Origin: a virus
Strand: one strand, 5' to 3'
Virus record (IMG/VR): IMGVR_UViG_3300034050_000451
Span: 1 to 64,000 of that record
DNA: 64,000 nt
Below are positions 270 through 35,200 of this stretch, piece after piece. A program made the position numbers and the translations under genes. The notes under the pieces were generated by a model, which had not been told where the DNA came from, did not search any database, and worked only from the letters and a program-made list of their open reading frames with translations. The first letter of the stretch is position 1. Every line of letters begins with the position of its first letter.

Positions 270-869
270 TTAAACAATATCTTTCGATTCTATTAATGTA
301 TATGTAAACGATTTACCATGTATTGCACCTGATTTTCTCGTAATAACCATAAATTCTTCAAAATCAGCTGCTTTTTTGAATACTTGACATCCTTCAGACC
401 AATTTTCAACATAAGTTGAATCTGCTCCAGCTTTGTGGATGTTGATACCAAAGATACCTTCTTGGATTTTGGTTTCATCATAGTTCATATCTCTATTAGC
501 ATCTCTATAAACCTTAACCGGCTTTTGTTGTTTAAGTGCTTCGTATTTACCTTGATGTAATCCCAATGTATGTGAACCTCTATATTGACCCGGAACTAAA
601 CGAGCAACTCCAGCTGCATTATGATATTCTTTAACTCCCTTTGTACCAGGGTCGGTTGTGTTTACCCATTCTTTGTAAATCCAATTACCACCATCTTTAT
701 ATGATACTGAAATTGCATCATCAAATACGTTAGTAACCTTTGTACCGGTTGATGAATTTCTGATACCTACGATGTTTAAATCAAATCCTTTGTTAGAAGC
801 ATCTTCAAACCAAACGTATCCTTTTGATTTAACTGCTTTTTCAATTTGTTCTTTTGTGTACTTTGCCAT
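270..869 (-). CDS. L,D-transpeptidase-like (YkuD-type) cell-wall protein
   Basis: 199 aa with no signal peptide. The C-terminal half carries H145 followed by S158-E-G-C161 (IHKAG...NWSEGCQVF), resembling the His plus S-x-G-C catalytic signature of YkuD L,D-transpeptidases, where the Cys attacks the peptidoglycan stem peptide. The spacing is slightly shorter than usual and Glu replaces the common His/Asn before Gly-Cys, so enzymatic activity is inferred, not certain. It is the last gene before a strong terminator and has a TATATTTATA promoter-like box about 20 nt upstream of its ATG. Proximity to the endolysin and holin suggests a role in wall remodelling or lysis. It could instead be a conserved phage structural protein with this fold. 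Confidence 0.55.
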   Translation of the reverse strand: MAKYTKEQIEKAVKSKGYVWFEDASNKGFDLNIVGIRNSSTGTKVTNVFDDAISVSYKDGGNWIYKEWVNTTDPGTKGVKEYHNAAGVARLVPGQYRGSHTLGLHQGKYEALKQQKPVKVYRDANRDMNYDETKIQEGIFGINIHKAGADSTYVENWSEGCQVFKKAADFEEFMVITRKSGAIHGKSFTYTLIESKDIV

Positions 870-901: not shown

Positions 902-2575
902 TTAGTACGAAATTGTTGTACTATTAGAATAACCGGTATTAATTAAGTAGTAATTTGAACTTCCACCACTTGTTGGATTATTTATTATAATTGAGGATGT
1001 TCCTATATAGGTAGGGCGTAAATCAGTAGTTGATGAATTTATTATATTATATTGTGATTGGGTAAATAATCTAACATTTGGTAAAGAATTTTCCCATATA
1101 GATTTCATCCCAACTTTTTTCATATGAATATAATAAACATCAGATACAGTTACTTCACCATCATTATTTACATCGTACTTATAATAATCTAATCCATTAA
1201 ATGAATTACTAATAACTTTGTACATTATAGAATTAATATCACTGGTACTTAGTTGTGTTGTAGGTGTTGGAATATCATATTGAATATACCATTCGGTTGC
1301 TGGATTGGTTGATTGAGAAAATGAATAATATCCAGAAGAGTTAGTATAAACTGTTTGATGTAAAACCCATGGAGTAAAATCGTTAATATAATCAAATTCT
1401 ATAACATAAGGTAAAGATGTATTTCCTAAATCATTCCATTTACCACCTGTAACAAATTGTGTATAATCTTCACTGGGTGAGTTATTAGGTTCTCCGGAAT
1501 TCCAATTTGTGTATTGATTTAATTTATATCGATATGCATATAAGTTATATGTTCTATCAATTTCATCGGCTGTTATAGCTCTATTGAATATTTGATAATC
1601 ACCTAATCTAAAATTACCATAAGCTCCAGAACCCATATTAGTAACATCACTTAATCCAAATGCGAAATATTGTCCGTTTCCCGAATACACATACGGAACA
1701 TCTCTAGTAAAATTAGTACTTCCAAAATTTACATTATTTAAATATCCTTTCATTGATGCCCCATCATAAGTAATAGAAACCAAATGCCAAGCGTTTAATG
1801 TAATAGATGTACTTAATTGAGTAATTCCACTACCATTCCAAAATCCAACTCTAAGGGTATTACTTCCAGTGATTTCCATTATTGATTCATGCCAACCTGA
1901 TGTAGGACTACCAACACCTAATTCCGATGATATAACTCCATTTCCGGTTGGATATATCCAAGCCATTATAGTTATTTTATTATTCGAAAATTTGGATGCT
2001 AAATTATTTGTTATTGCGTATTGATTAGTTCCATTGAATGTTAAATATTTCCCACCAGTACTTGAGTATGATGGTGTATTGTATAATGTAGAATTAATAC
2101 CAGATACAATATCAGTTAGTGTGGTTCCTGATGTATAAGAAGAAACATCATAATCAGCAACCAATCCATCAGTTACTTTAGTTTCTGTCCAACGAAATCC
2201 ACCAGCTGCTTCCGAATAAGTATATCCAGAAACTCTATCTTGATAATATCCAATCCAACCAGATGGCCATGTATTAAATAAGAAATTGTTCTCAGCTGAA
2301 TTAGATACGGTAGCTAAGTGACCTCCCATATTTTCACAAGCAACCTTTGCATTAGTCCAAGTCATTGAACCAGTAGAACGATAGTAAGAGTGTCCGTTAT
2401 AATTGGTTTGTGATGTAAACCCAGTAAGAGTTGGTGTAGTACGTTTATATAATTTTACAGCAACATTTTGAGCTGGTAATCCACCCGCATTATACATATA
2501 ACCCGAATATGTAAATGTTTGAGCAAATACAATATTGGATATTATTAATAATAACAGGGTGAGATATCTTCTCAT
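902..2575 (-). CDS. Secreted C-type lectin with inserted LamG domain and dockerin-like module
   Basis: Start chosen at ATG 2575, one base after the upstream stop, because it begins directly with a signal peptide (MRRYLTLLLLIISNIVFAQ). A longer frame to 2596 would bury it. A short beta domain follows, then the first half of a C-type lectin domain (W..A...C...GGHLATV, WIGYY). A concanavalin/LamG-type domain then interrupts it (GLVADYD, FNGTNQY, AWIYP, HLVSITYDG), after which the lectin resumes with W-N-S-G-E-P-N-N and KWNDLG. Near the C-terminus lies a dockerin/EF-hand-like stretch (DVNNDGEVTVSDVYYI) also found in the protein at 5722-7626. No C-terminal sorting tag is visible. Inferred role: secreted carbohydrate-binding surface protein. 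Confidence 0.7.
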   Translation of the reverse strand: MRRYLTLLLLIISNIVFAQTFTYSGYMYNAGGLPAQNVAVKLYKRTTPTLTGFTSQTNYNGHSYYRSTGSMTWTNAKVACENMGGHLATVSNSAENNFLFNTWPSGWIGYYQDRVSGYTYSEAAGGFRWTETKVTDGLVADYDVSSYTSGTTLTDIVSGINSTLYNTPSYSSTGGKYLTFNGTNQYAITNNLASKFSNNKITIMAWIYPTGNGVISSELGVGSPTSGWHESIMEITGSNTLRVGFWNGSGITQLSTSITLNAWHLVSITYDGASMKGYLNNVNFGSTNFTRDVPYVYSGNGQYFAFGLSDVTNMGSGAYGNFRLGDYQIFNRAITADEIDRTYNLYAYRYKLNQYTNWNSGEPNNSPSEDYTQFVTGGKWNDLGNTSLPYVIEFDYINDFTPWVLHQTVYTNSSGYYSFSQSTNPATEWYIQYDIPTPTTQLSTSDINSIMYKVISNSFNGLDYYKYDVNNDGEVTVSDVYYIHMKKVGMKSIWENSLPNVRLFTQSQYNIINSSTTDLRPTYIGTSSIIINNPTSGGSSNYYLINTGYSNSTTISY

Positions 2576-3027: not shown

Positions 3028-4245
3028 TTATAAAAGTGCTTTAGCACCAAGTAATACTTGGTAGTTTATAGCATCACTCTTAAATTGTTGAACACCACTA
3101 AAACTGATGTTCATTTTAAATTTCTGAGTTAGCTTGTAATCAATTGCAACAAATGGAACTGCTAATAGTCCCGATTGATACCACATGCCTTCATAATAAT
3201 ATACAAATGGTGAATATACTGTAACAAACATCAATGTAGTACTCATTTTTTTTCCTACATCGAAATTACCAACAACTCCGCCTAAAGTTGATAAACTTTG
3301 GAATTTGGATTCACCAATATTACCAGTAGTATAATTTACTCCCAACGTTGCTGTTATTTTTTTTATTTTATACGATTCCATTATCGATGTTGTATTAAAA
3401 TAATCCTTTTCAAAATTCAACATAGATGAATTTGCAACTATTGATGTTAAGTTTTTACGTCTCCAAGCTGCAAATAGTGTTATACAAGAATTATCAATTG
3501 CAGTAGTATAATTTACCAAAGCCCCTTTAGCAAATGTATTCTCAGTATTTGATGTGATAAAACTCATATTAATTTTAAGTTGTTGTGGTTCATTACCAGA
3601 AGCACTTGATATAGTAACAATATCACCAGTCATCATAATATTACCACGTTTAACAGCTGCTACTTTAGCTTTAACCTGAGATGAATTAGATGATGAAGAT
3701 GATACAGCCTCTTCAGCTTTTTCTTCACCTGTTTTTTCTTCCGATTCTCCTTTTGATTTAGTTGATTGCGATGAACTACCAGATGTACCATTTTTATCAT
3801 CTGATTTATTGCCGTTAGATGCGACTTTTTCATTACTCTGAACTGTACCTTGTATTGCTGAACCAGCTGCTCCACTTATAGATGAAAGTGATGACATGGT
3901 TGACATAACGCTTGTTAACACTGCTATATTATTAGCTGCAACCGTTACATTTAAATTGGTACTTTGTGCTATACCAACACCACCACAAGGGCCGGAACCT
4001 TGCGGATTACTCGCATTAACTTGATTAATCCAACTTTCTAATGCACCGGATTGTAATTGTGTTTGAGTAAAACTTTGAATTTGCCCAGAATATATTAATG
4101 ATACGCTACCATTTGGGCTATTAATAAAAATATCTTTGGATTTTAAGGTACATGGGTCTGTAAATGTATATGAGAACCCTTGTCCTAACACCACCATAGT
4201 AGAGAACAAAAAACTTATTGTTATTAAAAGTTTTTTAATTTTCAT
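3028..4245 (-). CDS. Exported protein with low-complexity linker and beta-barrel-like C-terminus
   Basis: About 405 aa from ATG 4245, chosen because the signal peptide (MKIKKLLITISFLFSTMVVLGQ) starts there. The reading frame overlaps the end of the upstream holin-like gene by 11 bp. Order: signal peptide, a domain with paired cysteines (DPCTL..., GSGPCGG), an Ala/Ser-rich helix, a charged Ser/Lys/Glu-rich linker at about 145-195, then roughly 200 aa of alternating hydrophobic and polar beta strands rich in aromatic residues, ending in LLGAKALL. The last part reads like an outer-membrane barrel. Family not recognised; role inferred from its position beside the CsgG-like gene. Confidence 0.55.
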   Translation of the reverse strand: MKIKKLLITISFLFSTMVVLGQGFSYTFTDPCTLKSKDIFINSPNGSVSLIYSGQIQSFTQTQLQSGALESWINQVNASNPQGSGPCGGVGIAQSTNLNVTVAANNIAVLTSVMSTMSSLSSISGAAGSAIQGTVQSNEKVASNGNKSDDKNGTSGSSSQSTKSKGESEEKTGEEKAEEAVSSSSSNSSQVKAKVAAVKRGNIMMTGDIVTISSASGNEPQQLKINMSFITSNTENTFAKGALVNYTTAIDNSCITLFAAWRRKNLTSIVANSSMLNFEKDYFNTTSIMESYKIKKITATLGVNYTTGNIGESKFQSLSTLGGVVGNFDVGKKMSTTLMFVTVYSPFVYYYEGMWYQSGLLAVPFVAIDYKLTQKFKMNISFSGVQQFKSDAINYQVLLGAKALL

Positions 4246-4597
4246 CTTGCGAATCCAATGTATTAGATAAAGATACGCCATCCTCTTCATCTACCTTTTG
4301 GATTAACATTTTGTCTCTATCTTCAGAGTTGAACCAATAATCTATAACTTTATTTAAGTTACCAACAAAGGCACCTAATAAAATTAATAACATTTCTTTC
4401 CAGTCTTGTCCAATTTCTACACCAAAAAATACACCAGAGTTGATTCCAACAATAATTAAGGTAAATAACCCTAATATAATTGCGGTAATTCTCCAACGAT
4501 TATTTTGCATTTGTTGCAACATAAAATAGAAACGATTTTTATCATCTACTTTAACATAATCAGATTTACCACCGAAAAATTCACTTATTTTGCCCAT
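4235..4597 (-). CDS. Putative holin (two-TM membrane protein)
   Basis: 120 aa. A basic, polar N-terminus is followed by a hydrophobic helix (WRITAIILGLFTLIIVGI), a short loop, and a second one (MLLILLGAFVGNLNKVIDYWF), then a charged C-tail. This topology, and the LLGAFVG...DYWF motif before a charged tail, resembles phage holins in which the last helix is followed by a charged segment. The GH19 endolysin gene is about 4 kb upstream in the same transcription direction. It overlaps the next gene by 11 bp. A non-lytic membrane protein is the main alternative. Confidence 0.5.
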   Translation of the reverse strand: MGKISEFFGGKSDYVKVDDKNRFYFMLQQMQNNRWRITAIILGLFTLIIVGINSGVFFGVEIGQDWKEMLLILLGAFVGNLNKVIDYWFNSEDRDKMLIQKVDEEDGVSLSNTLDSQDEN

Positions 4598-5323: not shown

Positions 5324-5647
5324 TTACCAAGAATCCTCTTCTTTTGGTTTAGCAGGTGCTGCAGCTGGTGCAGGTTTTTCTACAATTGTTTTTTCTTTAA
5401 TAATTGTATTTGTACCACCCGATTGTTTTTGTTGATTAGTGTTATTATTTTGTAGATTGATAATTACAGGTGCAGCTGGAGCAGCTTGTTCTGTTTTAGT
5501 TTCTTCTTTATCATCTCCACCATTAAATAGAGTTGTTGTAACCCAAGTTCCACCTGCTAATACAGCAGTTGATAGAGTTCCAATAATTGTTTTCTTTAAA
5601 CCTGACCAAGTTCCTTCTGATTCGGGTGCGTTTGTTTCTTCTGACAT
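5324..5647 (-). CDS. Small single-TM protein with Pro/Ala-rich tail
   Basis: 107 aa. An acidic N-terminus is followed by one hydrophobic segment (TIIGTLSTAVLAGGTWVTTTLF) and then a long hydrophilic tail rich in Gln/Asn, Lys/Glu and Ala/Pro, ending in DSW. No signal-peptidase site is evident, so it probably stays anchored with the tail in the periplasm or cytoplasm. The layout would suit a spanin-like or accessory lysis protein, but there is no specific motif. One base separates its stop from the ATG of the CsgG-like gene. Confidence 0.5.
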   Translation of the reverse strand: MSEETNAPESEGTWSGLKKTIIGTLSTAVLAGGTWVTTTLFNGGDDKEETKTEQAAPAAPVIINLQNNNTNQQKQSGGTNTIIKEKTIVEKPAPAAAPAKPKEEDSW

Positions 5648-5721: not shown

Positions 5722-7626
5722 TTATCTTAATATAATTTTTTTCGATAGGTTATTGGTAGTTTTTCTAAGAACTGCAACATAAACACCTGGAATTAAGTTA
5801 CCTAAACTAACTTGGTATTGGTAATTACCTTCAGGCATATTATCATTTACTACTACCCTATATTCAATACCATTAAGACCATATACTGATAACCTAACCG
5901 GTCCAAATTCTTTAACTTCAAATTTTACGTTAACATAATCATCAGTTGGGTTAGGGAATATTTGCATACCCTCTATTTCATCAATAGTAACATTTGCCAT
6001 TCTAAATACCTGTATAATACCATTTGTAGGTGTGATACTTAAATCAACACATTGATTGTTACCAGCGTATTTGTTAGTAGTCCAAAGAGGACTTGTACTC
6101 CATTGGTCTTGAGGTCTTTTTGCAATAAATTTTAAAGTTACAACATCATCACCATCTCTTAATGGTTTTATATGTGTACCACTAATATCATATCCACCCC
6201 AAGAAATTTCATTATTATTAGTATTCAAATATGTTAACCAACTTGAAGTAGCTGATTTCGATTCAATTCCTTTAAATTCCAATAGAGTATCGTTGTATTT
6301 TAATCCAAATTGTAATGAACCAACCTCAGTACCATTTGTTAATACCTTTACAGGTATATTAACTAAATTACCTTCCTGAACTGATAATGTTGGAACATTT
6401 ACTTCAATTGAAGTTGTTGGAAAATCATATTCTACCCTAGCATCAATTACATTGTAAATTTGAGATGGAACGCCAGGTTGTGGTCCTACTAAAACCTCAA
6501 TTGGAGTAATACGTGCCATACGATATCCCGTTCCATTTGCATCACCCGGTACTAATACATAGAATGTAACCGAATCAGGTTGTCCAGCAACAATATTAAA
6601 CGTAAAGTTAGTTACACCAGGAATTGTTGATGTATAATTGGTTGTTGAGCCATTAATAGTAGTATATTCAGATTGTGTAAAGAATTTTACATTTTGAACA
6701 CTATTAGGCCATGCGGTGAATCTACCAGAAATTCTACCAAATATACCATATGCATCCGATATACTTAAACCATTATCACCATTAACATCCGATGCGTAAA
6801 AATCAAATCCAGTTGGTGCTTGTGTACCTAATACATAATCTTGTACTCTTTGTGCATCTGCCGTAGATATTACATTACCAACTGATAACGTATCTCCCTG
6901 TATTTTTAATCTAACATCATAACCAGTTGTATCAATTGCAATTGCATTAAATGCAAAGTCACCATTTATATCAGTCATATCAGTTGTAACCTGAGTCCAA
7001 GCTCCACTTGGTCTAAGTTTCTTTTCTAAAGCTACAGTTAAATTCTTAGCAGCTGTTCCAGTTACGTTCTTAAATTTACCATGATAAGACATTGTTTGAG
7101 GTATAATATTACCACCAAAGTTTTGTAATGTAAGTGCGTTATCCATACCATTTTGCTTTGATGCAATTGCTGGATAAGTTACCGCTCCAAATGACATATC
7201 AGCAATAGTTGATAATGATGCAAATCCAGCTACGTGAGTTAATTTCAACTGAACAATTGGTCCATTTGGAATTTCAAAAGTAGATGAACTACCAGTATAA
7301 GTCATTGTGACAGTTACATAACCAGCAGCCGGATTATCAACATATTTTAGGTTCTGAGAAAATGTTGTATTCAATGTAGTAAGTGTGTCTACCCCAGTGA
7401 AAGCTTGTGTATCATAATAAACTCTAAACTGAAATGCTGTTATATCAGTTGTTGTATTGTTGTAAAAACATAGTCCTACATTAGTATAACCTTCAGCTAC
7501 CGTACCAGCTAAATAATTTGAATCAAGTGTTATAAAAACACCAGAAGTTGTTGGCGTTGGGCAAGTTTGTGAATACCCAAAGATTGGTACTAATGATACC
7601 AGCAGTAAAAATAATAGTTTTTTCAT
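5722..7626 (-). CDS. Secreted cohesin/dockerin-like protein with T9SS C-terminal sorting domain
   Basis: 634 aa. Signal peptide (MKKLLFLLLVSLVPIFGYSQ), a cohesin-like beta domain at about 25-150, a carboxypeptidase-regulatory-like segment (GDFAFNAIAIDTTGYDVRL), a dockerin/EF-hand-like stretch (SDVNGDNGLSISDAYGIF) with the same downstream NVKFFTQSEY pattern as the lectin at 902-2575, and a second cohesin-like domain at about 405-500. The last 80 residues match the type A T9SS sorting domain: QIFPNPTDDYVNVKF, then L.VYGLNG, PEGNYQYQVSLGNL, PGVYVAVL and KKIILR. In Bacteroidota this tag sends proteins through the Por system to the cell surface. A phage gene carrying it implies display or secretion by the infected host. 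Confidence 0.75.
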   Translation of the reverse strand: MKKLLFLLLVSLVPIFGYSQTCPTPTTSGVFITLDSNYLAGTVAEGYTNVGLCFYNNTTTDITAFQFRVYYDTQAFTGVDTLTTLNTTFSQNLKYVDNPAAGYVTVTMTYTGSSSTFEIPNGPIVQLKLTHVAGFASLSTIADMSFGAVTYPAIASKQNGMDNALTLQNFGGNIIPQTMSYHGKFKNVTGTAAKNLTVALEKKLRPSGAWTQVTTDMTDINGDFAFNAIAIDTTGYDVRLKIQGDTLSVGNVISTADAQRVQDYVLGTQAPTGFDFYASDVNGDNGLSISDAYGIFGRISGRFTAWPNSVQNVKFFTQSEYTTINGSTTNYTSTIPGVTNFTFNIVAGQPDSVTFYVLVPGDANGTGYRMARITPIEVLVGPQPGVPSQIYNVIDARVEYDFPTTSIEVNVPTLSVQEGNLVNIPVKVLTNGTEVGSLQFGLKYNDTLLEFKGIESKSATSSWLTYLNTNNNEISWGGYDISGTHIKPLRDGDDVVTLKFIAKRPQDQWSTSPLWTTNKYAGNNQCVDLSITPTNGIIQVFRMANVTIDEIEGMQIFPNPTDDYVNVKFEVKEFGPVRLSVYGLNGIEYRVVVNDNMPEGNYQYQVSLGNLIPGVYVAVLRKTTNNLSKKIILR

Positions 7627-7704: not shown

Positions 7705-8160
7705 ATGAAACTGATTCTACTTTTAATTAATTTTTTATTTGTGTTTGATTGTTACTCACAAATTAAAATCGATGATGTTGGTGATAATTGGAAAGCAAAG
7801 GTAGCTACTTCATTATCACTAATAAAACAAGTTGACCCTAATAAATATGAATTAATTAATGATGTATGTAAACATATCACCTATTGGGATGGTGATTTTT
7901 CAACAACAGAAGATTCAGTTACCATAATGATATCCCAAAAAGATATGAGGTTTAATTCAATAAATAACATAGCAGCTATATTAGTGCATGAATCTAAACA
8001 TTTATTTTATTTAAAGCATAACATAAAATTACCTCCGAATTATGAGGAAATATTAGCATATCATTATGAATTGGAATTCCTATCAAAAATACCTAATGTA
8101 GAACCTTGGTTGGTTAACAACGCACTTAAGAATATAGAATATTATGGTTTAGTTAAATAA
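7705..8160 (+). CDS. Secreted HExxH metallopeptidase-like protein
   Basis: 151 aa, the only convincing plus-strand gene. An N-terminal signal peptide (MKLILLLINFLFVFDCYSQ) is followed by a small helical domain with the zincin motif H95-E-S-K-H99 preceded by hydrophobic residues (AAILVHESKHLFYL), and downstream acidic residues E114/E115 in NYEEILAYHYE that could supply the third zinc ligand as in gluzincins. The protein is small for a peptidase, and substrate and activity are unknown. It converges on the endolysin gene (13 bp apart) and diverges from the T9SS-tagged gene. The opposite strand suggests separate control or recent acquisition. A signal-peptide-bearing accessory (moron-type) role is an inference. 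Confidence 0.7.
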   Translation: MKLILLLINFLFVFDCYSQIKIDDVGDNWKAKVATSLSLIKQVDPNKYELINDVCKHITYWDGDFSTTEDSVTIMISQKDMRFNSINNIAAILVHESKHLFYLKHNIKLPPNYEEILAYHYELEFLSKIPNVEPWLVNNALKNIEYYGLVK

Positions 8161-8173
8161 ACCAACCCCCATA

Positions 8174-8995
8174 TTACTTTAATAAGTTATAGTATTCTTT
8201 GAAGTGTTTGATTCTATCAGCTAATCCAATAGTACCACCATTTACTCTTTTAGTTACCGATGTTACAGTAGCATCATCAAAACCTTTATCACAAATAGAC
8301 CAAAGTTTATTTGAATCAAAGAAAAATGCAGCAGAAGCTAATGGATATTTAGTTGCTACCAAATCAGGATTTGCAACAGTATCTTCACCAATGAATTTAG
8401 CGAAGTTAGTATAGTTAGATTTACCAGTTAATTGAATATAACCACGTCCACGAAATTTAAATCCGTCTTTAGATGCTTCATCACCATTACCCATTCTTGA
8501 TGCGTAAACTTTAGATGCAATCTTTTCAGGGTTTCTAGCATATGCAGCTGCAGTTGTTGAATTAAAGTATTTTCCGAAGATTTTTACTAATCCATCTGCT
8601 GAATAGTTAACATTCTCAGTAACGGCTTTGAATCCACCACTTTCGTGTCCACATTGTGCTAAGAAATGAGCTAATCTTAGAGGAGTTGTAATATTGAATT
8701 TAGAAGCAGTGTCTGGAATTTGAGCAATTACAGAATCAGGAACGTGTCCTTTAAGAGCTGCCAATTTAAATGAAGATGCTGGTACAGCAACAGAAGGAGT
8801 TGGAGTACTTGCACCCAATCCCATCTTTTCCCAAGTAGCATCACCAACGATACCATCAGCAGTTAATCCATTTTTTGTTTGCCAAGCTTTTACAGCTGAT
8901 TCAGTACCAGCACCAAAAACTCCATCAGCGGTTAAACCTAATTTTGCTTGTAATTTTTTTACATTTTCGTTATTATCACCTTTTTTAACTAACAT
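8174..8995 (-). CDS. Endolysin: peptidoglycan-binding domain plus GH19 chitinase-like domain
   Basis: 273 aa. Residues 1-60 form a PG_binding_1 domain (VKKLQAKLGLTADGVFGAGT...AVKAWQ...GIVGDATW). A Thr/Pro linker leads to a GH19-type lysozyme domain: RLAHFLAQCGHESGGFKAVTEN with probable catalytic E118, NYSADGL, MGNGDE, and FRGRGYIQLTG. This domain order is common in phage endolysins that cleave the glycan strand of peptidoglycan. There is no signal peptide, so release through a holin is expected; the two-TM protein at 4235-4597 is a candidate. Confidence 0.9.
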   Translation of the reverse strand: MLVKKGDNNENVKKLQAKLGLTADGVFGAGTESAVKAWQTKNGLTADGIVGDATWEKMGLGASTPTPSVAVPASSFKLAALKGHVPDSVIAQIPDTASKFNITTPLRLAHFLAQCGHESGGFKAVTENVNYSADGLVKIFGKYFNSTTAAAYARNPEKIASKVYASRMGNGDEASKDGFKFRGRGYIQLTGKSNYTNFAKFIGEDTVANPDLVATKYPLASAAFFFDSNKLWSICDKGFDDATVTSVTKRVNGGTIGLADRIKHFKEYYNLLK

Positions 8996-11943: not shown

Positions 11944-11953
11944 TATAAATATT
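11944..11953 (-). promoter_or_regulatory. TATATTTATA-like box overlapping a stop codon
   Basis: Minus-strand AATATTTATA overlaps the stop of the PolA-like gene at 11952 and is 29 nt before the ATG at 11914. It matches the recurring box with one difference. Confidence 0.35.
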
Positions 11954-13217
11954 AAAGTTTCGAGTAATCAGTTCCCCAGCTAGCATTAATGGGGAATCCA
12001 CCACCTTCAGCTATCTCTTTTAACTTTTTAGCTTGAGATACATCGGAATTAGCAGGATATGAAAATAAGAATGAATCGTATGTGTATAGGGAAAGTTCTA
12101 TATCGGTATCTTTGATAAATTCCAATATTTTAGCTACCCTTTCCATATTTAATTCGGTTTCGGTCGCTTGAAGTAGGTAGTTGAACAATTTTTGCGGATT
12201 GTTTCCTTCAATCCAATCTAAGGGGATTCTCCTATGTTGTGTTTGAAGATATCCAGCTTTGGTACTCTTATCCCACAACTTCTCAATGAACTCCTTAACA
12301 CCCTTATAATAAGGTATTTGCTCAAACTCCTCAGGTATACCACCATATAGTAATTGGAACGTAATTCCTTTACCCTCACCATACTCACAACCATATTGGT
12401 CAGCTAACCATTGGTGTACGGATGTTTTGGGTAATTCGTAACCAATCAACTTACCAATAATACGTGGATGATACGCATCATAATCCATTTGTAGGAATAT
12501 GTGGTTTGGTTTTGGGATAAACACCTCTCTCGTACCATCGGATTTGTTTAGGGCAGAGAAGTTGATTCCACCAAATCGGTTGGATGGACGGGATGTAATG
12601 GTGTATGGGTTGTATTGGGTGTAAACGATATCGTTGTGTAAATGTTTAGAAGCTTGAGGCCATCTATCAAGAAATTTTTCCCTATCGACCCGAACACCAA
12701 AATGTTCTATATCTGAAAGAAGGGGAATCATCGAATCTCCAACCCAATCATTCTCTATACCAATAGTAAAAGTAGAAGATATCACTCTAAGATACTCACC
12801 CCATTTCATAATAGGTGCTATCTTGCCCAAATTATCTCGTATACCTCTTCGGGTATAGTGAGTTATAAATGGTTGGTCCTCAAAACCTATCGGATATAAT
12901 TTATTGTGTTGAAAAAATGCATCAGATTGTAAATCATTTAGGTTTTGTAAACCCAAATTACATTGAAGTAATCCCTTTTTGTTGATTACCCATTTTGCTT
13001 CCTTAGAAGTAGTCAAATCAATCGTAGGAGTCTTACAATCAATATGGTTAAATGGTACAATAAAGTCCTTATCATCAAATCTAACATATAGAAATGATAA
13101 TTTGTTATGTATAGGATGCTTTTCCAAATCAGACCATATTGGAATGATTATGGATGTCTTAGTATTCCATAAATTTAAAAACTCCGTTACTTCAGTTTGT
13201 GACTCTACTATAACCAT
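11952..13217 (-). CDS. Compact family-A DNA-polymerase-like protein
   Basis: 421 aa against about 600-900 for full PolA enzymes. Residues 160-182 carry the thumb-type pattern LLSDIEHFGVRVDREKF. Residues 206-225 (TITSRPSNRFGGINFSALNK) match the PolA TGRxSS..PNxQN region. Motif A has D245 (LQMDYDAYHPRII), motif B is GKGITFQLLYGG with K283, F287 and Y291, and motif C is LYTYDSFLF with D381. Pol I has Glu after the motif A and motif C aspartates (DYSQIE, HDE); here these positions are His and Ser, and the motif B arginine is Tyr. The N-terminal 150 residues look like a reduced exonuclease domain without a clear acidic active site. It sits between a glycosyltransferase and virion genes, not with replication genes. 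Confidence 0.65.
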   Translation of the reverse strand: MVIVESQTEVTEFLNLWNTKTSIIIPIWSDLEKHPIHNKLSFLYVRFDDKDFIVPFNHIDCKTPTIDLTTSKEAKWVINKKGLLQCNLGLQNLNDLQSDAFFQHNKLYPIGFEDQPFITHYTRRGIRDNLGKIAPIMKWGEYLRVISSTFTIGIENDWVGDSMIPLLSDIEHFGVRVDREKFLDRWPQASKHLHNDIVYTQYNPYTITSRPSNRFGGINFSALNKSDGTREVFIPKPNHIFLQMDYDAYHPRIIGKLIGYELPKTSVHQWLADQYGCEYGEGKGITFQLLYGGIPEEFEQIPYYKGVKEFIEKLWDKSTKAGYLQTQHRRIPLDWIEGNNPQKLFNYLLQATETELNMERVAKILEFIKDTDIELSLYTYDSFLFSYPANSDVSQAKKLKEIAEGGGFPINASWGTDYSKL

Positions 13218-13235: not shown

Positions 13236-14213
13236 TTATTTGAATTTACCAAATTTATTAGATATTTGTTTTATTTTAAAGATATAATTTGAAAAATAGT
13301 GCTGATGTGCTGATGTTATACTACCTTCATTAAAATTTCCATCTAATTTAGGTAGATATATGTTGGATTGAAATCCTTCAGTTCTTAAATAGTCAACTTT
13401 ATCTCTGATATGGAATATATCGTTCCACAAATCAGTTCCATTTACTTTTAAACCAGTATCAGTTACCCTACCTTCATTATGTACTCTAGCATAAGTCAAA
13501 ATTCGTTTTATTGAAGTGTGTGCTAATCCTAAATAATCTAAACTACCCATAACTTCCAAATCATCAACGAAATTAGAAGTTACATCAAATTTATCGATTA
13601 CTTTTAGTAAAGATGAGGTTCTCATTACATATGTGTGATAAATGCACATAATATTTGCTTTACTACAATGAATTATAGATGTAAAATGCTTTGGTTCATC
13701 ATAATAGTTAGTTGTCCAACTCCAAGGATGAGTCCAAGGGTGATTATTAGGAATTGTATATGCTGTCCATAAATCTCTTGTCTTTGGGGCCTCTAATGGA
13801 GTTTGAGTTTGATTTATTTGTTGTAATGTAGTATTCTCAAAGAATACAGCTGAACCATATGAGAAATCTAACTCAGTATGTTGTGTATATGTGTTTGATA
13901 AGTACTCTAATGTATCTTCTGCCAATAAATCATCATCATCCAATCGTACAATCAATTCACCATTAGCAAGTTTTACTCCAATTTTCCAAGAATTCTTAAA
14001 TAAATCGTATGGAGTATTTGATGTGTGGTATAAAACATCATTTTTAGGATTTTGTGATTTAAAATCTTTATAAATGTTAAAATTAACATCAGATGCTGAA
14101 TCATCAAAAATAATAACCTCCCAATTCGTATGAGATTGAAGTTGGACAGATGCCAATGCTTCTTTTAATAAATCAGGTCGGTTGTATGTACGAACTATAA
14201 CACTTATTTTCAC
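13236..14213 (-). CDS. Family 2 glycosyltransferase
   Basis: 325 aa, GT-A fold. The N-terminus KISVIVRTYNRPDLLKEAL with WEVIIFDDSASD is typical of GT2 enzymes, and the metal/nucleotide-sugar motif is GELIVRLDDDDLLAEDTLEYL (D-D-D-D core). The start codon is GTG at 14213; no in-frame ATG lies close upstream. The acceptor-side C-terminal half is not assignable. Phage GT2 proteins modify DNA bases, virion proteins or host surface glycans; the location among baseplate and fibre genes favours a virion or surface target, by inference only. A TATATTTG box lies 19 nt upstream of the GTG. Confidence 0.85.
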   Translation of the reverse strand: MKISVIVRTYNRPDLLKEALASVQLQSHTNWEVIIFDDSASDVNFNIYKDFKSQNPKNDVLYHTSNTPYDLFKNSWKIGVKLANGELIVRLDDDDLLAEDTLEYLSNTYTQHTELDFSYGSAVFFENTTLQQINQTQTPLEAPKTRDLWTAYTIPNNHPWTHPWSWTTNYYDEPKHFTSIIHCSKANIMCIYHTYVMRTSSLLKVIDKFDVTSNFVDDLEVMGSLDYLGLAHTSIKRILTYARVHNEGRVTDTGLKVNGTDLWNDIFHIRDKVDYLRTEGFQSNIYLPKLDGNFNEGSITSAHQHYFSNYIFKIKQISNKFGKFK

Positions 14214-26245: not shown

Positions 26246-29200
26246 TTATTTTATCAAAGATTTAATCATTTCTTTTAATTCATCAATTTGTTTTTGCTGA
26301 GAATTGATTATTTCGGTTTGTTCTTTAATACCTTCAACTAAAAGAGGAACTACTTTAGCGTAGTTTACAGTTAAGTAATCTTCTCCAGATTTGGAACCTA
26401 CAATATTATTATTTTTATCAGTTTCCGTATCAAATGGTGCTAATGTCACAATTTCAGGTAAAACTTCTTGTACTTCTTGTGCTGATAAACCTAATTGTCT
26501 TTTTTCGTTTTTGTATCCGAATGATTTTGCTAAATCATTTTCAACATAATAGAATCCATTCAATTTAGAGATTTTATCTAAAGCGTTTTCAATAGAACCA
26601 ACTTTAGTTTTTAATCTTTCATCAGAGTAGTATGCAATAACATCACCCTGTGCGTAAACCCAGTTATAAGAATAAACATAATCATAGTTTGTTCTATTCA
26701 ATCTGGAAGTACCATTCGGAGCCAAATAATATGCAGTATCACTGTTGTGGTAATATACGTTACCATATACTCTATTATTGAAATATGCAATAGGGTTACC
26801 ACTCTCTCGTCCGATATATGCTACGGAAACTGACTGGCCAGTAGTATTATCATGTATTCTTACATATGAGTTTGCATTATTATCATTTGAATCTAATCTT
26901 AAGTTGATATCATTAAATGAGTTAATACTCATCGAATCACTAAACGAACCATTTAAATCAGTAGATGCGATACCATGATTTGAATAAGTGTCATAATTCG
27001 CGTTCCAGTCAAATGACATGTATGCCGTTTTATGGAATGAATTTGACCAAGTACCATATCCCTGTGCTCTACCTTTATTAGTATCTGAACCGAAGTATGT
27101 TGTATCAGTTATGGTTGTATTGAAACGAGATGTTGATGCAAAATCACCATAGTATCCAGAGTTATTACCATCGTAATATATACCACCATAAACTGTACCT
27201 GTTCCGAAATTTGAATAACCAGAATAGTTGTTTGAATTTAGATATCTAACCCATCCGCTGAAACTTCCTCCGGTAATATTTCTTTGATAAATTTCATTTG
27301 CATTATCTTCCCATCCATATGCCAATTGAGTTCCCCAATAGTTACTTGAGTTTGCATGTCTCATATTTACCTGGAACCACCAAGTTCCAGATGGACCACC
27401 ATTATATTTATCTTCACCAAACGTAAATGAACTTATTGGAGTTCGATTGAAATCTGAAACCCAGTTTCCTTCTCCATAACCACTCATATCATTATGAGCT
27501 TTTAATGCAGTCTTAGTTATATTTAAACGAGATGTTGATGCTGGGTCTGCATAATATGCACTATCAGCCGAATCATAATAAATTCCAGCATACATTGCTC
27601 CACTATTTCCATCATTCACATCAAGCATAGGTACAGTTCTCCAAGTACCAGCATTTGGCCAAGATTGACGGAATCGTAAATTTCCAATTGGACCACCTAC
27701 CAACTGCCAACCATATGCACTATTGTATGCATTGGTGTAGTGATATGCTTGAGTACCTACCCAATGTGAAGTACCAGATGGTTGATTTGATGGGTTTGAC
27801 CAAGAATCAATGAATCCACTACCCCATGTCATCATAGTGTTGAAGTCAGTTGTACCCCAACCCATACTTCCAACCCAATAATTAGAGTCGCCCGTATGAA
27901 TAAATCTTGGGATATTGTATTTCCATGTTCCTTTGGTTCCTTCTACTGTTCTTGCGGTAAATCCATTAACGCTGGTGCTTCTATCACCTGCATAATTACC
28001 ATAGTATCCAGTATCATCATTATCATAGAATATAGGTGCCTGAACTGAAGTTCTGAACCAACCACGTGATGATATTGCCGCAAAAGTTGTACCATAGTTC
28101 ATTACCAATAAACCGTGGTCATTTAAGAATCCAGCTTGTCCTCCAGCATTAGGATGTGACCAAGATAATCCATATAAGTTACCAGTACCAGTACCATCAA
28201 TTGCTAATTTATATGCATTACCCATTGCAAATATACCCTGATATCTAACAGATGTATAAACACCTACAATTGATTGTCCATAGTTGTTATCTAAGTAAAG
28301 GTTTTCATTTCCATCAATTCGGATACCACCATTTGCTACTACATATGATAATCTAGCAGTTCCATTAGGGTCTAAATAATATGCAGTATTTGCATAATCA
28401 TAGTAAAGATTAGCTCTTAAATTTTTATTACCACCACCAGGTCCAATGTAAACATCACCACCATCATAATAGTTTAATTCTAACGGGTCACTACCTCTAC
28501 CATTTACAGTATCAGCATATACGTTTCTACCAATGAAACCATAACTCGTATCTCCCGCCCAATATAAATTATCATAATTAATAGCGTTTATACGAGATGT
28601 TGATGCAAAATCACCATAGTATCCCGTATTATCCGAATCATAAAATATTGGTGCTCTTAATGAGTTACCACCCGTAGCGTAGTTGTTAAATAATACGGTA
28701 TTATTTGGATACATTTCCATATTAGTAACTCTAGTACCAGATGTATTTGTATTATAGAAATACAAATCACCACCATCACTAAATCTCATATATGCCTGTC
28801 CGTGTGCGGTATTTATTCTACCAAATCCGTTTGGTGAACCATTATTATTAGTTACGTTATATCCAAATCCACCCCAGTTCCACGTTACACCAGGTTCAGA
28901 TACCCACATTCTTAAATTAATTTCACCTGCACCAGCACCATTGTTTCCAGACAATAATCTAACTCCAATTTGAGAATCCCCATGTCCACCATTTACTTGA
29001 AATGTACCATATAAGTAAGTGTTACTATTGGGGTTCATATAATATGTAGTATCATCTATATCATAGAATATAGTAGCTCTTGATGAACCATATGCGTAAT
29101 GATTACCAGCAGTATCATATCCACCAACTGTTCTACCGGCAGTTTCAGAATACATATGGAATGCATCAGTACTACCTAACAATTGAGTTGATGTACGTTT

Positions 29201-32200
29201 ACCAACATACCAACTACTACCACTACCACCAATATAACGAACCATTGCTTCCCATCCGTTACCAGGGTTTATAGTAAGGTAGGTATGTTTAGCTCCAGTT
29301 AAATTTAAATTATAAAAATTAGATGTTGATGCAGGGTCTGCATAATATCCTGAATCATTTCTATCATAATATATAGTACCATAAATTGGACCTGCTCCAT
29401 CTAATGTGCCACCATTCATATTGATACCACCATACAACCAGTTATAACCAGCTGAATAGATACCAGATGGATGCCAAGATGCGTTTCCAGTTCCACCTAC
29501 GTTACCATTACCTTGATATGAATAAGTTTGTAGAGTATTTAGGTTTGATGCACCATCACCATTTATATAATACGCAGTGTTGGTATCATAATAAATTGGT
29601 GCCCTCATATCCGTATCAGCTCTAAATGTAGGAGCGTATGTATTAGATAATCTAATTTCAGGCGTTATTGCAGTTTGGACTGTACCAAATGATGTTACTA
29701 CTGCTATATTCCAATTTCTAGATTGTGAATCAGCGTTTGAACTTCTAAATCCAGATGTAAAATCAATAACACTAACTACCGGATAACTCCATCCAGTATT
29801 TGTTTCACCTATCCAAACACAATCAACTCCGTCCTGATTACCAAATCTTACAGTATGTGCAGTTGCACTTGCTCCACCTATAAAAGTAGCAGATGAGTTA
29901 TAACCACCTTGGTCATAAGCATAATTACCTAATAGATATTCTGATGTTTGGTTAGTAGAGTAATTATAAATTCGAACCTTCATAGTCCACATAGGGTTAT
30001 TTCCCCTAAATGGTAATTTAATTCTAATAGCTCCAGTAGAACCATCTGATGAAAATGCTGCTCCTTGTGGTGCAGTTATTCGTGTCACAACGTTTGGTGA
30101 TGATGATGAATAACCATCACTACTAAATGCTCCACCTGAATGAACAGTTCCACCTATTCTTAAAGAAATTCCAGTTGTATTAGGGTCTAAATAATACCCA
30201 CTATCATTGTAATCTCTAAATAATGTACCTCTTACTTCTTCAGATGCCACAATTCTAGATGAAATTGCTGCTCTAAATGTACCATTATTGATAATCAATA
30301 AACCGTGGTCATTAAGATTATTAGCTCCACCTAATCCACCTGCGTTTGGATGTGACCAACCAATACCATACATATTTGCCGTTGATGTACCTGCCGTATT
30401 TGGTTTGTATGAATCACCCATAGCAAATACCAATTGTAATCTCTCTGCTGAATAGTTACCAACTATACCTTTTCCGAAATCATCAAATACAATATTTCTA
30501 GCATATGTAATTCTAGTAGTATCTCTCGTATCATGGTAGTGAATTAGGGAATCAGTTCCAGCGAATCTACTATATCTATAAACATTATATCCAGAATCCC
30601 AATACCAATGGTCACCATACCAAGATGATGAATCTTCTCCAAAATAGAAATGAGAATCACCACTATCGGTTGCACCAACTCTTAAAGTATCATTAATATG
30701 AGTTTCATCAGCGTTACCATTTCCTAAATAAGTGTATCCATTTACATATAAATTATTAGTTACCCTAACATGTGCATCACCAGTACCAATTGAGAATATA
30801 AGCGTACCTAAATCTTCAGTATCATAAAAACGAATACCACCATATCCAGGTTGTGCACCCATACGGATACCAGTATGCCATCTTAAATCTAATTTAGTAT
30901 ATGAACCACCATAACCTTCTATATTAGTACCTATGTAATAGTTATCATTTGCATCAGAGTTACCTCCTCCAAAATGTAATCTAGCAGAACCTACTGAATT
31001 GTATGCGTTATTACTAAAGTTACCACCAATTACAACTCTTCCCGCAGTTTGTAAATCATTTAGGTTTGATGTTGATGCTCCATCTATATAATAATTAGTA
31101 TTATTTGCATCATAATAAATTGCTGCAAATAAGTTACCACTACCTCTATTATATCCAAATGCGGGTACAAGGTTTCCATTTAGATAAAGGTCATTTACGT
31201 TCATATAGAAATTACCTCTATCCGTATAGATATGAGCATATGAACTATTTGCAGGTCCTATTTGTATGTATCCAACGTCTGTAGTAAATCTAACACCCCA
31301 ATCACCAGCTCCAGATAATGTAGAATTATTTGCAGATGTACCCAATCTAATTGCGTTTAGTACAGAAGTAGATGCAGGGTCTAAGTAATATCCAGTATTA
31401 TTTTCATCATAGAATGCATATGCGTACATATTGTTAGCAACCAAATTTTCATATGATGTACCCGGATTATTTCTTATTGAAATTCTACCACTTGCTTCCA
31501 TTGTAATATTGGATGCAACTACACCACTCCAATGGAAACCAATTGATGGTGCGTATGCAATGGCCGAACCATTTGCACCACTAGCACCTGCTTCTCTAAT
31601 TTGAAAATGTTGTTGATATGATGTTCCAGCGGTTACACTATATACAGGCGATGCTGCATCAAATGCAATTCCATTCATACGAGATGTTCCTGCTGGATTT
31701 GTATAATACCCAGTATTATCAGAATCGTAGAATATAGGTGAACGCATGTTCCCAGTTGCAGTCAATTCACCACTTTGGTTACCATAAATTACGTTACTAC
31801 CACCTGAATTTCTCCAAATCCAGTCTCCAGCAGCTTGGAAATACCAATTATTAGAATGATATTGAATCTTACCACTAAATTCACCATCCCATGTAGATGA
31901 ATCACTTCTCCAACTACCAACAGTTCTTAACGATGTTGTTGATGTAGGGTCTAAATAATATGATGTATTATTCGAATCATAGAATATAGGTGCTCTAAAA
32001 CTTGCTGCTGCAGTAGCAACACCACTATCATTTACACTAAACTCAACAGTAGTCCAAGCATTATCTACTACTTCTAAATATCTACCTGCACCACCACCTA
32101 ATTGTACAGTTAATACACCGGCTGCTCTATCAGATGCTCTACCAATCCAAGCCTCACCAGTATTAGTTTGAGAATTATTAAATGTACCAACTTGAATTCT

Positions 32201-35200
32201 ACCCTGTAAATTAGCAGAAATTCCATTTGCTCCATTAGATGGGTCTATATAATATGATGTATTATCCGAATCGTAGAATGTTGGTGCAGCAATACCGAAT
32301 TGACCTGAAGTTGGATATACAATACTATCTGCCGTAAAATCGGAAATGTTAGTTGCAGAAGGTGATGTGTTAATATAAACCGCACCAATTGCACTATTTG
32401 TATTGGTAGTAATACTTCGTGTAGTTCTAATAAGAGCATCAACTGATGAGTAATATCTAACATCAACATATACAGGAATGTATCTATGGTCACCACTTAC
32501 AACTACTTCAGAACCAATAGTTACTTGGAAGTGATTTGAACCTATACCATTTGCTTCAACTAATTGAACTGATGCTGCAGAAACATATCCATAAGAAACT
32601 ATATATCTTTTTCTTAAACCTTTATCGTAGTAATTTTCCGAAAGTTCAACTTCAAATAAACCAACAGAGTTCCAATCATTAAAATCAATACCAATTCGTG
32701 CAACTTCAAATCTTCTAGCTTGAGTTGCAGATGCACCTAAGTTATTGATTCCAAAATATTTATAATCACCGATTTGGAAATCATTACCTAAATTTATTGT
32801 ACCATTTACAGTAAGAGTTCCAGCAATATTTAAGTTATTAAGAACAGATGTACTATTTCCATCAATTCTATATGTTGTATCATCCGAATCATAGAAAATT
32901 GGAGAACGCATATCACCTGTTGTTGATATGGTAGTATCCCCACTATGCCACAATCTTCTACCAGTACCCCAAGTTGCAGAATCAAATGCTTGTCTTGAGA
33001 ACCATAGGTTATCACCATACTTATCTCCAACAATTGCGTAACTTTGTTTAACATCACCACCATTATAAGTTGACATCCATAGAACATCATTCCAACTTCC
33101 ACCAAATCCAAGGTTTCCGTTACTAAGCATGGCTACCTTTAACTTACCAGCTCCGAATGTAGCTGAGTTAGGTTTTTCAGTTCCCCCAGATGAATAATGT
33201 CCTCCTAAAAAAGAACCAGCAATATTTCCAGTAGAAGTATATATTCTATGGTCATAATATGTCCCTTGTTGACCATCTAATAAATCTGCATCTAATCCAG
33301 AACCAGCACCATCTGTACTACCTGTCCAAACTTTTTCATTTTCCCAATAAAGAATACCATCAGTACGCATTTCCAAATACTTACCAACAACACCACTAAT
33401 GTGAAAAGCAATACCAGTGGTTGTAGTGCTATATGATTCAGTCCATAAAGCAGCGGTAGTATAATTGTTGTTTGTTTGTGCTTTTCTAAACTGCCCTCTT
33501 ACTGATACTATTTCATTTATATTTGAAGTACTAGCTGCATCTAAATAGTATGCGGTATTATCTGAATCATAAAATATTGGTGTTCTCATGCTTTCAGCTG
33601 AGAAGAATCTACCATTTGTAAACATTGAGTGTCTTATACTCCAAGAAGTACTATCAACGCCAGATGCAAAATAATGTTGTATATCACCACTACCATCCAT
33701 ATGTCTTAACCACATATTATTGGATATAGTATTTCTAAATGTCATAGATGGATACTGTCCTCTAATATTTATTGCACCATCATTAGGAGTAGTGTTAGCC
33801 CAGTTATTTACTAATTGGATATGGCTAAGTACAGAAAGTCCAGCAGGATTTGTATAATATGCAGTATTATCCGTATCATAGAATATAGGTGCCCTCATAT
33901 CTACTTCAGATGCAATCCTTACATTAGAATACCAACCACCATTTGTTAAATTAAGATAAAAATTATTTTCACCTAAGTAATACGCGTTTGATGCTCTAAA
34001 ATTAGTACCTCTTATCGTAGAAAAAGTAACATCATCCGTTGTACGAATGTTTTGGTTCATTAAATGAACTTCAGTTGAACCTTGTCCAGTATCTATCGAT
34101 GTACCACTTATTGTACCATCTGCTATAAAATTACCAGTTCTTAATGTTGGAGTTTTAGTGGATGTTACAGTACCAAATGATGTTGTTTCAAATGATAGAG
34201 CCCAATCACCATCCCATTGAGATACAGCGAAGTTTGAATGTCCACCAATAAACTCAGTAACAACTATTTTAGGGTATGACCAAGTTGTTGCTAATTCACC
34301 GATGAATATTGTACAATAAGTACCATCATGTGCAAATCTAACAGTATATGCAGGTGCCCCAGCTGCCCCAGCAACACTTGCATTTGTATTAATCCAAGAT
34401 GTTGATGGTGAATAATTATATCCACCCATTGAGTATTCCCAATAAGTATCTCCACTATAATTGTAAATACGAACTTTTAACTCCATCATAGTGTTTGTCC
34501 ACGATTGAGGAAGTCGTATCTTTATTGCTCCAGTTACGGATGATGTACTATTATTTAATGTACCTCCATTTGGATATGTTATTTTTAATACACTACCTTG
34601 CTCTTGTGCGAAAGCATTAGCATTTATATAATTTAATCGAGATATATCATTATTAATAAAATATGTAGTGCCACCACCTACATAAATTGTATTACCAGTT
34701 ATATTTGCAAAAGTTACACTATCAGTAGTTCTAACATTTTGGTTCATCAAATGAACTTCGGTTAATCCTTGCCCAGTATTAACTTGAGCTGCTACTAAAT
34801 TACCAGCTAATGTTAATGAGTTTAAGTTTGAAGTACCGGTGTTTAAATAATAAGTTGTATCGAATAAATACATTGTATCAATTCTATCCAACAATAAGTT
34901 ACCAGTTTGTGCTGAGTTTGCTGTAAAAACATTACCCCCTACACCCAATACAATTCTCTTAGATGCGTTTATGAATTTTAATCCTGCCCAACTATTATAA
35001 TCCCAATCATTATTATCAGTAAAACGTAAAGATGATAAGTTTCTCCAAATGGTTTCACCAGTTGAGATACTTGTCATTGTCAATCCATTTGCTGCAAAAT
35101 AATAATCATTACCTGTTGTTGTAAGATTTAGTCTAGCAAATGTTATAGTATCAGATGTACGAACGTTTTGGTTCATCAAATGAACTTCAGTTAATCCTTG

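Follow-up and report, generated by a model that had tools for sequence, protein, structure and literature searches.

The first gene of a compact minus-strand operon in the window (the first 64 kb of a 270,865-bp virus record) encodes a scaffold protein with an N-terminal signal peptide, cohesin and dockerin-like modules, and a type A C-terminal sorting domain (CTD) of the type IX secretion system (T9SS). Our analysis suggests that a cohesin/dockerin-like lectin scaffold is probably displayed on the infected cell by way of the host Sec and T9SS pathways, together with a CsgG-like channel, a reading that we hold with moderate confidence. An earlier sequence-only reading of the scaffold ORF had proposed that the phage places this protein by means of the host T9SS. 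Such surface delivery is well supported by the sequence, the matches of the modeled fold, conservation, and a natural exchange between mutually exclusive anchors. Given the operon, with its CsgG-fold, lectin, and lysis genes, and the existence of a lipoprotein variant, the single tagged protein of that reading would become one part of a multi-gene surface apparatus.

The Pfam model Por_Secre_tail (PF18962) matched residues 556-632 of the scaffold at 38.1 bits (gathering cut-off, 27), and TIGR04183 (T9SS type A sorting domain) matched residues 556-633 of 634 at 26.6 bits (cut-off, 23). The type A tag claimed in the sequence-only reading, which had suggested a search with a sorting-domain model as a check, was thus recovered by both models above their cut-offs. 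The tag is the sole PF18962 match across the whole virus record. A chance match was considered and ruled out, as the curated cut-offs were passed and all 34 CTD-bearing relatives matched PF18962. The Sec signal peptide (MKKLLFLLLVSLVPIFGYSQ), also claimed there, is evident by eye in the sequence and forms a helix in the model; the relatives also carry one. The claim of cohesin/dockerin-like domains held in part: Cohesin (PF00963) matched residues 407-540 at 43.2 bits (cut-off, 24.1), and a second cohesin stretch was also counted by the Pfam scan, but Dockerin_1 matched residues 252-292 at 19.3 bits, under the Pfam cut-off of 22.9. The lectin protein encoded further along the operon gave a dockerin match of 13.1 bits against the same cut-off. 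Because these scores are below the cut-off, we call the modules of both proteins dockerin-like only. Dockerin matches reached an E-value of 0.01 in just 11 of 41 scaffold relatives and 3 of 29 lectin relatives; the Ca-loop-like motif of the scaffold module is kept in the relatives, and a 160-aa dockerin-like module is common to the scaffold and the lectin protein.

An AlphaFold2 model of the scaffold, built with an input alignment of 41 relatives, showed separate domains: a beta-sandwich at residues 30-175, then a small all-beta module (179-243), two helices (255-266 and 289-299) in the region of the dockerin match, and a cohesin at 421-522 followed by a low-confidence or disordered linker at 525-551. 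The sorting tag was predicted as a separate domain of exactly seven strands (residues 554-633; pLDDT, ~66-86). Published type A CTDs are seven-stranded sandwiches in which the motifs set the fold and one Lys near the C-terminus is almost invariant and functionally important (PMC10994853); this Lys is present in the window tag (SKKIILR). A Foldseek search of the PDB with the scaffold returned, at the top, a cohesin construct and cohesin-bearing scaffoldin pieces of Clostridium thermocellum, followed by many cohesins, and the N-terminal sandwich matched cohesins and cohesin-X-dockerin scaffoldin fragments. When the profile of the scaffold family was compared with the PDB, the best match in the tag region was 8glk_D (named Endonuclease I; E 2e-4), which we read as the substrate NucA's CTD in the T9SS translocon complex of F. 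johnsoniae (PMC10994853).

Table 1. Positions in the window of the scaffold and its parts, the other operon genes, and the adjoining endolysin gene
Feature	Position	Strand	Basis
T9SS-tagged scaffold, 634 aa	5722..7626	(-)	signal peptide, cohesin-like, X/transthyretin-like, dockerin-like, cohesin, CTD
Sec signal peptide MKKLLFLLLVSLVPIFGYS, scaffold residues 1-19	7570..7626	(-)	sequence; helix 2-15 in AlphaFold model
N-terminal cohesin-like beta-sandwich, residues 30-175	7102..7539	(-)	AlphaFold pLDDT ~90, Foldseek
Dockerin-like module, residues 250-300, one intact Ca-loop-like motif SDVNGDNGLSISDAYGIF	6727..6879	(-)	sub-threshold Dockerin_1, two helices
C-terminal cohesin domain, residues 407-540	6007..6408	(-)	PF00963
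T9SS type A C-terminal sorting domain, residues 556-632	5731..5961	(-)	PF18962, TIGR04183, seven strands
s107, small membrane protein, Pro/Ala-rich tail	5324..5647	(-)	conserved operon position; holin-like at best
c239, CsgG-fold outer-membrane channel-type protein, 239 aa	4603..5322	(-)	Foldseek
h120, membrane protein, two hydrophobic stretches	4235..4597	(-)	holin-like by look only
t420, exported, low-complexity middle, outer-membrane-protein-like C-terminal part	3028..4245	(-)	alignment
e157, exported small relative of the CsgG-fold protein, 157 aa	2577..3026	(-)	hhalign
Lectin protein: signal peptide, C-type lectin, LamG, dockerin-like C-terminal module	902..2575	(-)	Pfam
l199, lysis-type protein	270..869	(-)	phrog_33083 endolysin E 4e-12, phrog_3000 E 1e-36
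Endolysin (PG-binding + GH19), adjoins operon	8174..8995	(-)	Pfam, lysis families

Seven same-strand genes follow the scaffold gene with gaps of -11 to 74 bp, giving the order T9SS scaffold, small membrane protein, CsgG-fold protein, second membrane protein, outer-membrane-like protein, CsgG paralogue, C-type lectin, and lysis-type gene. Signal peptides are found on all of the products except l199 and the small membrane proteins s107 and h120. The family matches of the membrane genes are weak (s107 with the 'hol-like' phrog_2658, E 0.0027). The model of c239, moderately confident (pLDDT, 65), had CsgG in all of its top 16 Foldseek matches to the PDB, near full length, with a best E-value of 4e-9 and a TM score of ~0.5. 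Neither a Pfam HMM search nor two PDB profile sequence searches gave a CsgG match for c239, so its likeness to CsgG is one of compared folds. It is 70-88% identical among relatives, many of which carry a lipobox-like LSC; the window c239 has no lipobox. The e157 protein aligned with the c239 family at an hhalign probability of 92% (pairwise E 5e-7), and its matches to ribosomal S1 were taken as chance. For t420, the PDB offered no useful match, and the gene is kept in all complete loci of both lineages described below (49/49 with the tag and 26/26 with a lipoprotein). The lectin protein, which has no CTD, matched Lectin_C at 38.0 bits and Laminin_G_3 at 56.7 bits in Pfam.

The same 64 kb also holds genes for the tail sheath, tail tube, baseplate hub, and endolysin, and the window is therefore phage DNA. 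A host or prophage-flanking origin of the region, which the sequence-only reading had named, beside the lack of a model match, as grounds for refuting it, was ruled out by the placement in a virus record, the tail genes, and synteny with a cultured phage. Several other ORFs of the window were recorded. On the plus strand, 7705-8160 encodes a small exported protein with a metalloprotease-like motif (HESKHLFYLKH), and in 42 of 81 loci a relative of it adjoins the cassette. A Glycosyl transferase family 2 gene (13236-14213, minus strand; 66 bits), possibly serving another surface-changing function, lies between the tail and lysis genes, and a 421-aa ORF in the tail/lysis region (11952-13217, minus strand) gave a weak, sub-cut-off match to DNA polymerase family A (21.5 bits). 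Two minus-strand tail-fibre-like ORFs of 3,927 and 3,994 aa (26246-38029 and 40104-52088) contain very long collagen-like Gly-Thr/Ser-Ser repeats (GTSGSSG); the first ends in SDERLKTKVGSIENALDKISKLNGFYY, which resembles an S74 intramolecular chaperone.

With the CsgG-fold protein as anchor, two scans found 158 and 147 viral contigs, and the best 80 of each were taken. The eight-gene block is common to at least 65 related viral contigs, and the order of the cassette is conserved in more than 100 metagenomic phage contigs. PF18962 matched 34 of the 41 scaffold relatives scanned, namely all of those bearing a CTD, the other seven being N-terminal halves that lack it. Among 65 tagged loci, the motifs PxP and GxY were present in 64 and 65, respectively, and the near-C-terminal Lys in 63, with Arg in the other two. 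A strict signal-peptide pattern fitted 50 of the 65 scaffolds; by eye, the other 15 start with evident, polar-interrupted signal peptides. Each of 11 large tag-lineage records (117-308 kb, immuto included) contained exactly one sorting domain, located in this operon.

Immuto, a cultured phage of Flavobacterium, carries this gene set as gp013-gp019, mostly annotated as hypothetical. Its scaffold consists of two proteins, each with a signal peptide: gp014, the N-terminal half with the dockerin-like module, matches residues 1-367 of the window scaffold, and gp015, with the cohesin and a CTD above the sorting-domain cut-off, matches residues 405-607. Their fusion in the window scaffold fits two proteins acting together. 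The sequence-only reading had also suggested a survey of phages for the tag; a generic CTD query matched eight records of an annotated phage collection, four of them immuto, and no phage of that collection except immuto had the cassette. UniProt contains a 636-aa homologue, 50% identical, from an uncultured Caudovirales phage (A0A6J5M064), automatically named 'Secretion system C-terminal sorting domain'; we found no study of its operon or function in the open-access literature searched.

A second lineage keeps the cohesin scaffold, the CsgG-fold protein, e157, and t420; its scaffold has no tag, and the next gene encodes a lipoprotein of ~120 aa. Among 108 distinct loci, 65 had the tag, 37 the lipoprotein, and none both, 5 were cut by contig ends, and 1 (L083) had neither, in a classification whose CTD and lipoprotein models drew on sequences from the same sets and could miss weak outliers; independent Pfam results agreed with it. 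In L083 (6907-7640), an in-frame TGA lies within the cohesin part of a cohesin-CTD gene and the frame continues through an intact sorting domain, reflecting either a sequencing error or a broken gene. The lipoprotein family aligned with the CTD at an hhalign probability of 87% (E 4e-6, a pairwise and not a database value), and some lipoproteins weakly matched the Pfam sorting-domain model. One of them, on the L128 contig (G012:C1:19881-20081), reached 17.3 bits with the T9SS sorting-domain model and might connect the two anchors in evolution. All 37 lipoproteins have a lipobox, and in 33 at least two acidic residues come right after the Cys (e.g. CSDLEQFE), closely resembling SDDFE, which in F. 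johnsoniae was deduced to direct lipoproteins to the surface (PMC5080379). In a tree of the CsgG-fold protein, for which the tool warned of long branches, the anchor type switched at least two times. The lectin gene is limited to the tag lineage (45/49 complete loci, versus 0/26 in the lipoprotein lineage). Since the tag is kept in every complete locus of its lineage, occurs once per tested genome, and is swapped for the lipoprotein but never accompanied by it, surface delivery is likely the selected trait. GIY-YIG homing endonuclease-like ORFs were seen by eye inside four lipoprotein-lineage cassettes (L123:3894-4460, L124:7204-7800, L150:2094-2690, and L154:6972-7559); the one scanned, that of L123, had no Pfam match.

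The window virus appears to be a large virus of Bacteroidota (Flavobacterium-type) bacteria. Immuto infects Flavobacterium sp. LMO8. Only one of the viral contigs, L094, is binned, and of 61 genomes from the genus of its bin (Flavobacterium), 60 had SprA above the cut-off. This contig was the only find of the CsgG-fold gene in a scan of 84,980 species, and searching 300 other genomes of the bin's family gave no copy of the phage-type gene; the operon therefore appears to live in phages that are not usually resident in chromosomes.

We propose that the scaffold would cross the inner membrane via Sec and that its CTD would then be taken up by the host T9SS (SprA/PorV), so that the scaffold either stays on the surface or is set free. 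PorV is known to take proteins with a type A CTD away from the translocon, after which they are set free or attached to the cell surface (PMC10994853, PMC12618676). The cohesins of the scaffold and the dockerin-like modules of the scaffold and the lectin protein would join the parts, holding the C-type lectin/LamG protein at the surface, and the CsgG-fold protein, e157, and t420 may form a companion outer-membrane channel or anchor that helps other parts out or anchors them. Late in infection, surface glycans and receptors would most likely be covered or rearranged, keeping other phages and progeny off the cell or its debris. We infer that the scaffold is actually secreted, that its cohesins bind dockerin-like partners, and that the CsgG-fold protein acts as a channel. 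The purpose (masking, exclusion, aggregation, or lysis) we likewise infer, preferring receptor masking, then lysis, then aggregation, then T9SS competition; that the surface apparatus serves masking is a tentative guess. The uses suggested in the sequence-only reading (a surface mask, a superinfection-exclusion factor, or a decoy) are each possible.

A lysis module is an unlikely alternative. As infection ends, the outer membrane would be opened or weakened by a CsgG-fold pore together with t420 and the small membrane proteins, the scaffold and lectin being surface parts. In 48 of 81 loci, an endolysin gene lies no more than 8 kb from the cassette, often straight after the lectin gene, l199 and the endolysin match lysis families, and Buchholz et al. 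suggested that the CsgG of a marine methylophage acts in lysis (PMC9004378). However, lysis has no need of a T9SS-tagged cohesin scaffold with a lectin, the membrane genes match families weakly, and the immuto cassette lies several kb from the annotated endolysin, beside nucleotide-metabolism genes. Somewhat less likely still is adhesion or aggregation ('sibling capture'), in which the displayed lectin would stick infected cells to one another or to particles so that progeny meet hosts. The C-type lectin and LamG domains fit this idea, which has been raised for the curli modules of pelagiphages (PMC7029224), but the lipoprotein lineage retains the scaffold and channel without the lectin, and no sign of fibre subunits was seen.

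Ig-like domains are common on virions, and the cassette and the tail genes share a strand in the window; the scaffold and lectin might thus be virion parts, their CTD-like domain a mere beta-sandwich for assembly. We consider this improbable, because the exported parts carry Sec signal peptides, the immuto cassette does not adjoin structural genes, and the CTD retains T9SS motifs and is exchanged for a lipoprotein rather than a virion part. It is equally improbable that the phage CTD occupies SprA/PorV and blocks the export of host receptors or adhesins. The single tagged protein per phage and the CTD-like fold of the lipoprotein variant would suit such jamming, but the large conserved passenger on the tag would then be needless, and overproduced type A cargo was exported well by the T9SS (PMC12618676). 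That a host gene was picked up by chance, with no phage use, is disfavored as extremely improbable: the domains are of bacterial kinds, but their order is conserved in more than 100 contigs with operon spacing, and the channel gene is missing from the 300 genomes of the family.

Phage cargo of the T9SS has been reported earlier. Bellas et al. 2020 (PMC7468147) described genes for type A cargo in Cryophage and proposed that the host T9SS exports the products, perhaps serving exclusion or competition. Its sorting domains are like that of the scaffold, but they sit on the products of three highly variable genes (endoglucanase, GH39, and PA14) of one phage (PMC7468147), whereas here one conserved scaffold with cohesin/dockerin-like parts occurs in a fixed operon of many phages with a CsgG-fold protein. 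The gut phages of the crAss-BACON group also have sorting domains on proteins; their BACON repeats lie beside head genes, and no such operon has been described for them (PMC6949934). Pelagiphage and methylophage curli (type VIII secretion) modules resemble the window in combining a CsgG channel operon with exported partners, but they comprise CsgF and curli-repeat proteins and belong to phages of Proteobacteria (PMC7029224, PMC9004378, PMC9599517). In contrast, the cassette proteins of the window and immuto had no Pfam match to CsgF, CsgE, or curlin repeats, and the cassette has a T9SS or lipoprotein anchor, a cohesin scaffold, and a lectin. The scaffold folds match pieces of multimodular CipA and many cohesins of cellulosome scaffoldins, and the immuto gp014/gp015 layout is that of an adaptor plus an anchored cohesin, as in those scaffoldins. 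Unlike them, the phage scaffold has degenerate dockerin-like modules, a T9SS or lipoprotein anchor, and a lectin instead of enzymes, and is encoded by a phage. In the open-access literature searched, we found no paper on the operon, its spread, or the anchor swap, no relevant paper on cohesin/dockerin proteins in phages, and no virion or secretome data for immuto.

The tag of earlier single T9SS-tagged phage proteins was not shown to be kept by selection. Because the scaffold here bears a host surface tag that is replaced by a lipid-anchored similar fold in relatives lacking the tag, the virus probably covers the cell that it infects in a sugar-binding coat. We tentatively regard the operon as a new trans-envelope display system of Bacteroidota phages, in which a CsgG-fold core and a cohesin scaffold would present a lectin coat and the exit of the scaffold would have switched during evolution between the host T9SS and the host surface-lipoprotein route. 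Phage immuto on Flavobacterium sp. LMO8 provides a cultured model for surface delivery. These findings suggest that Bacteroidota phages may remodel the surface of the infected cell with a self-assembling lectin scaffold.
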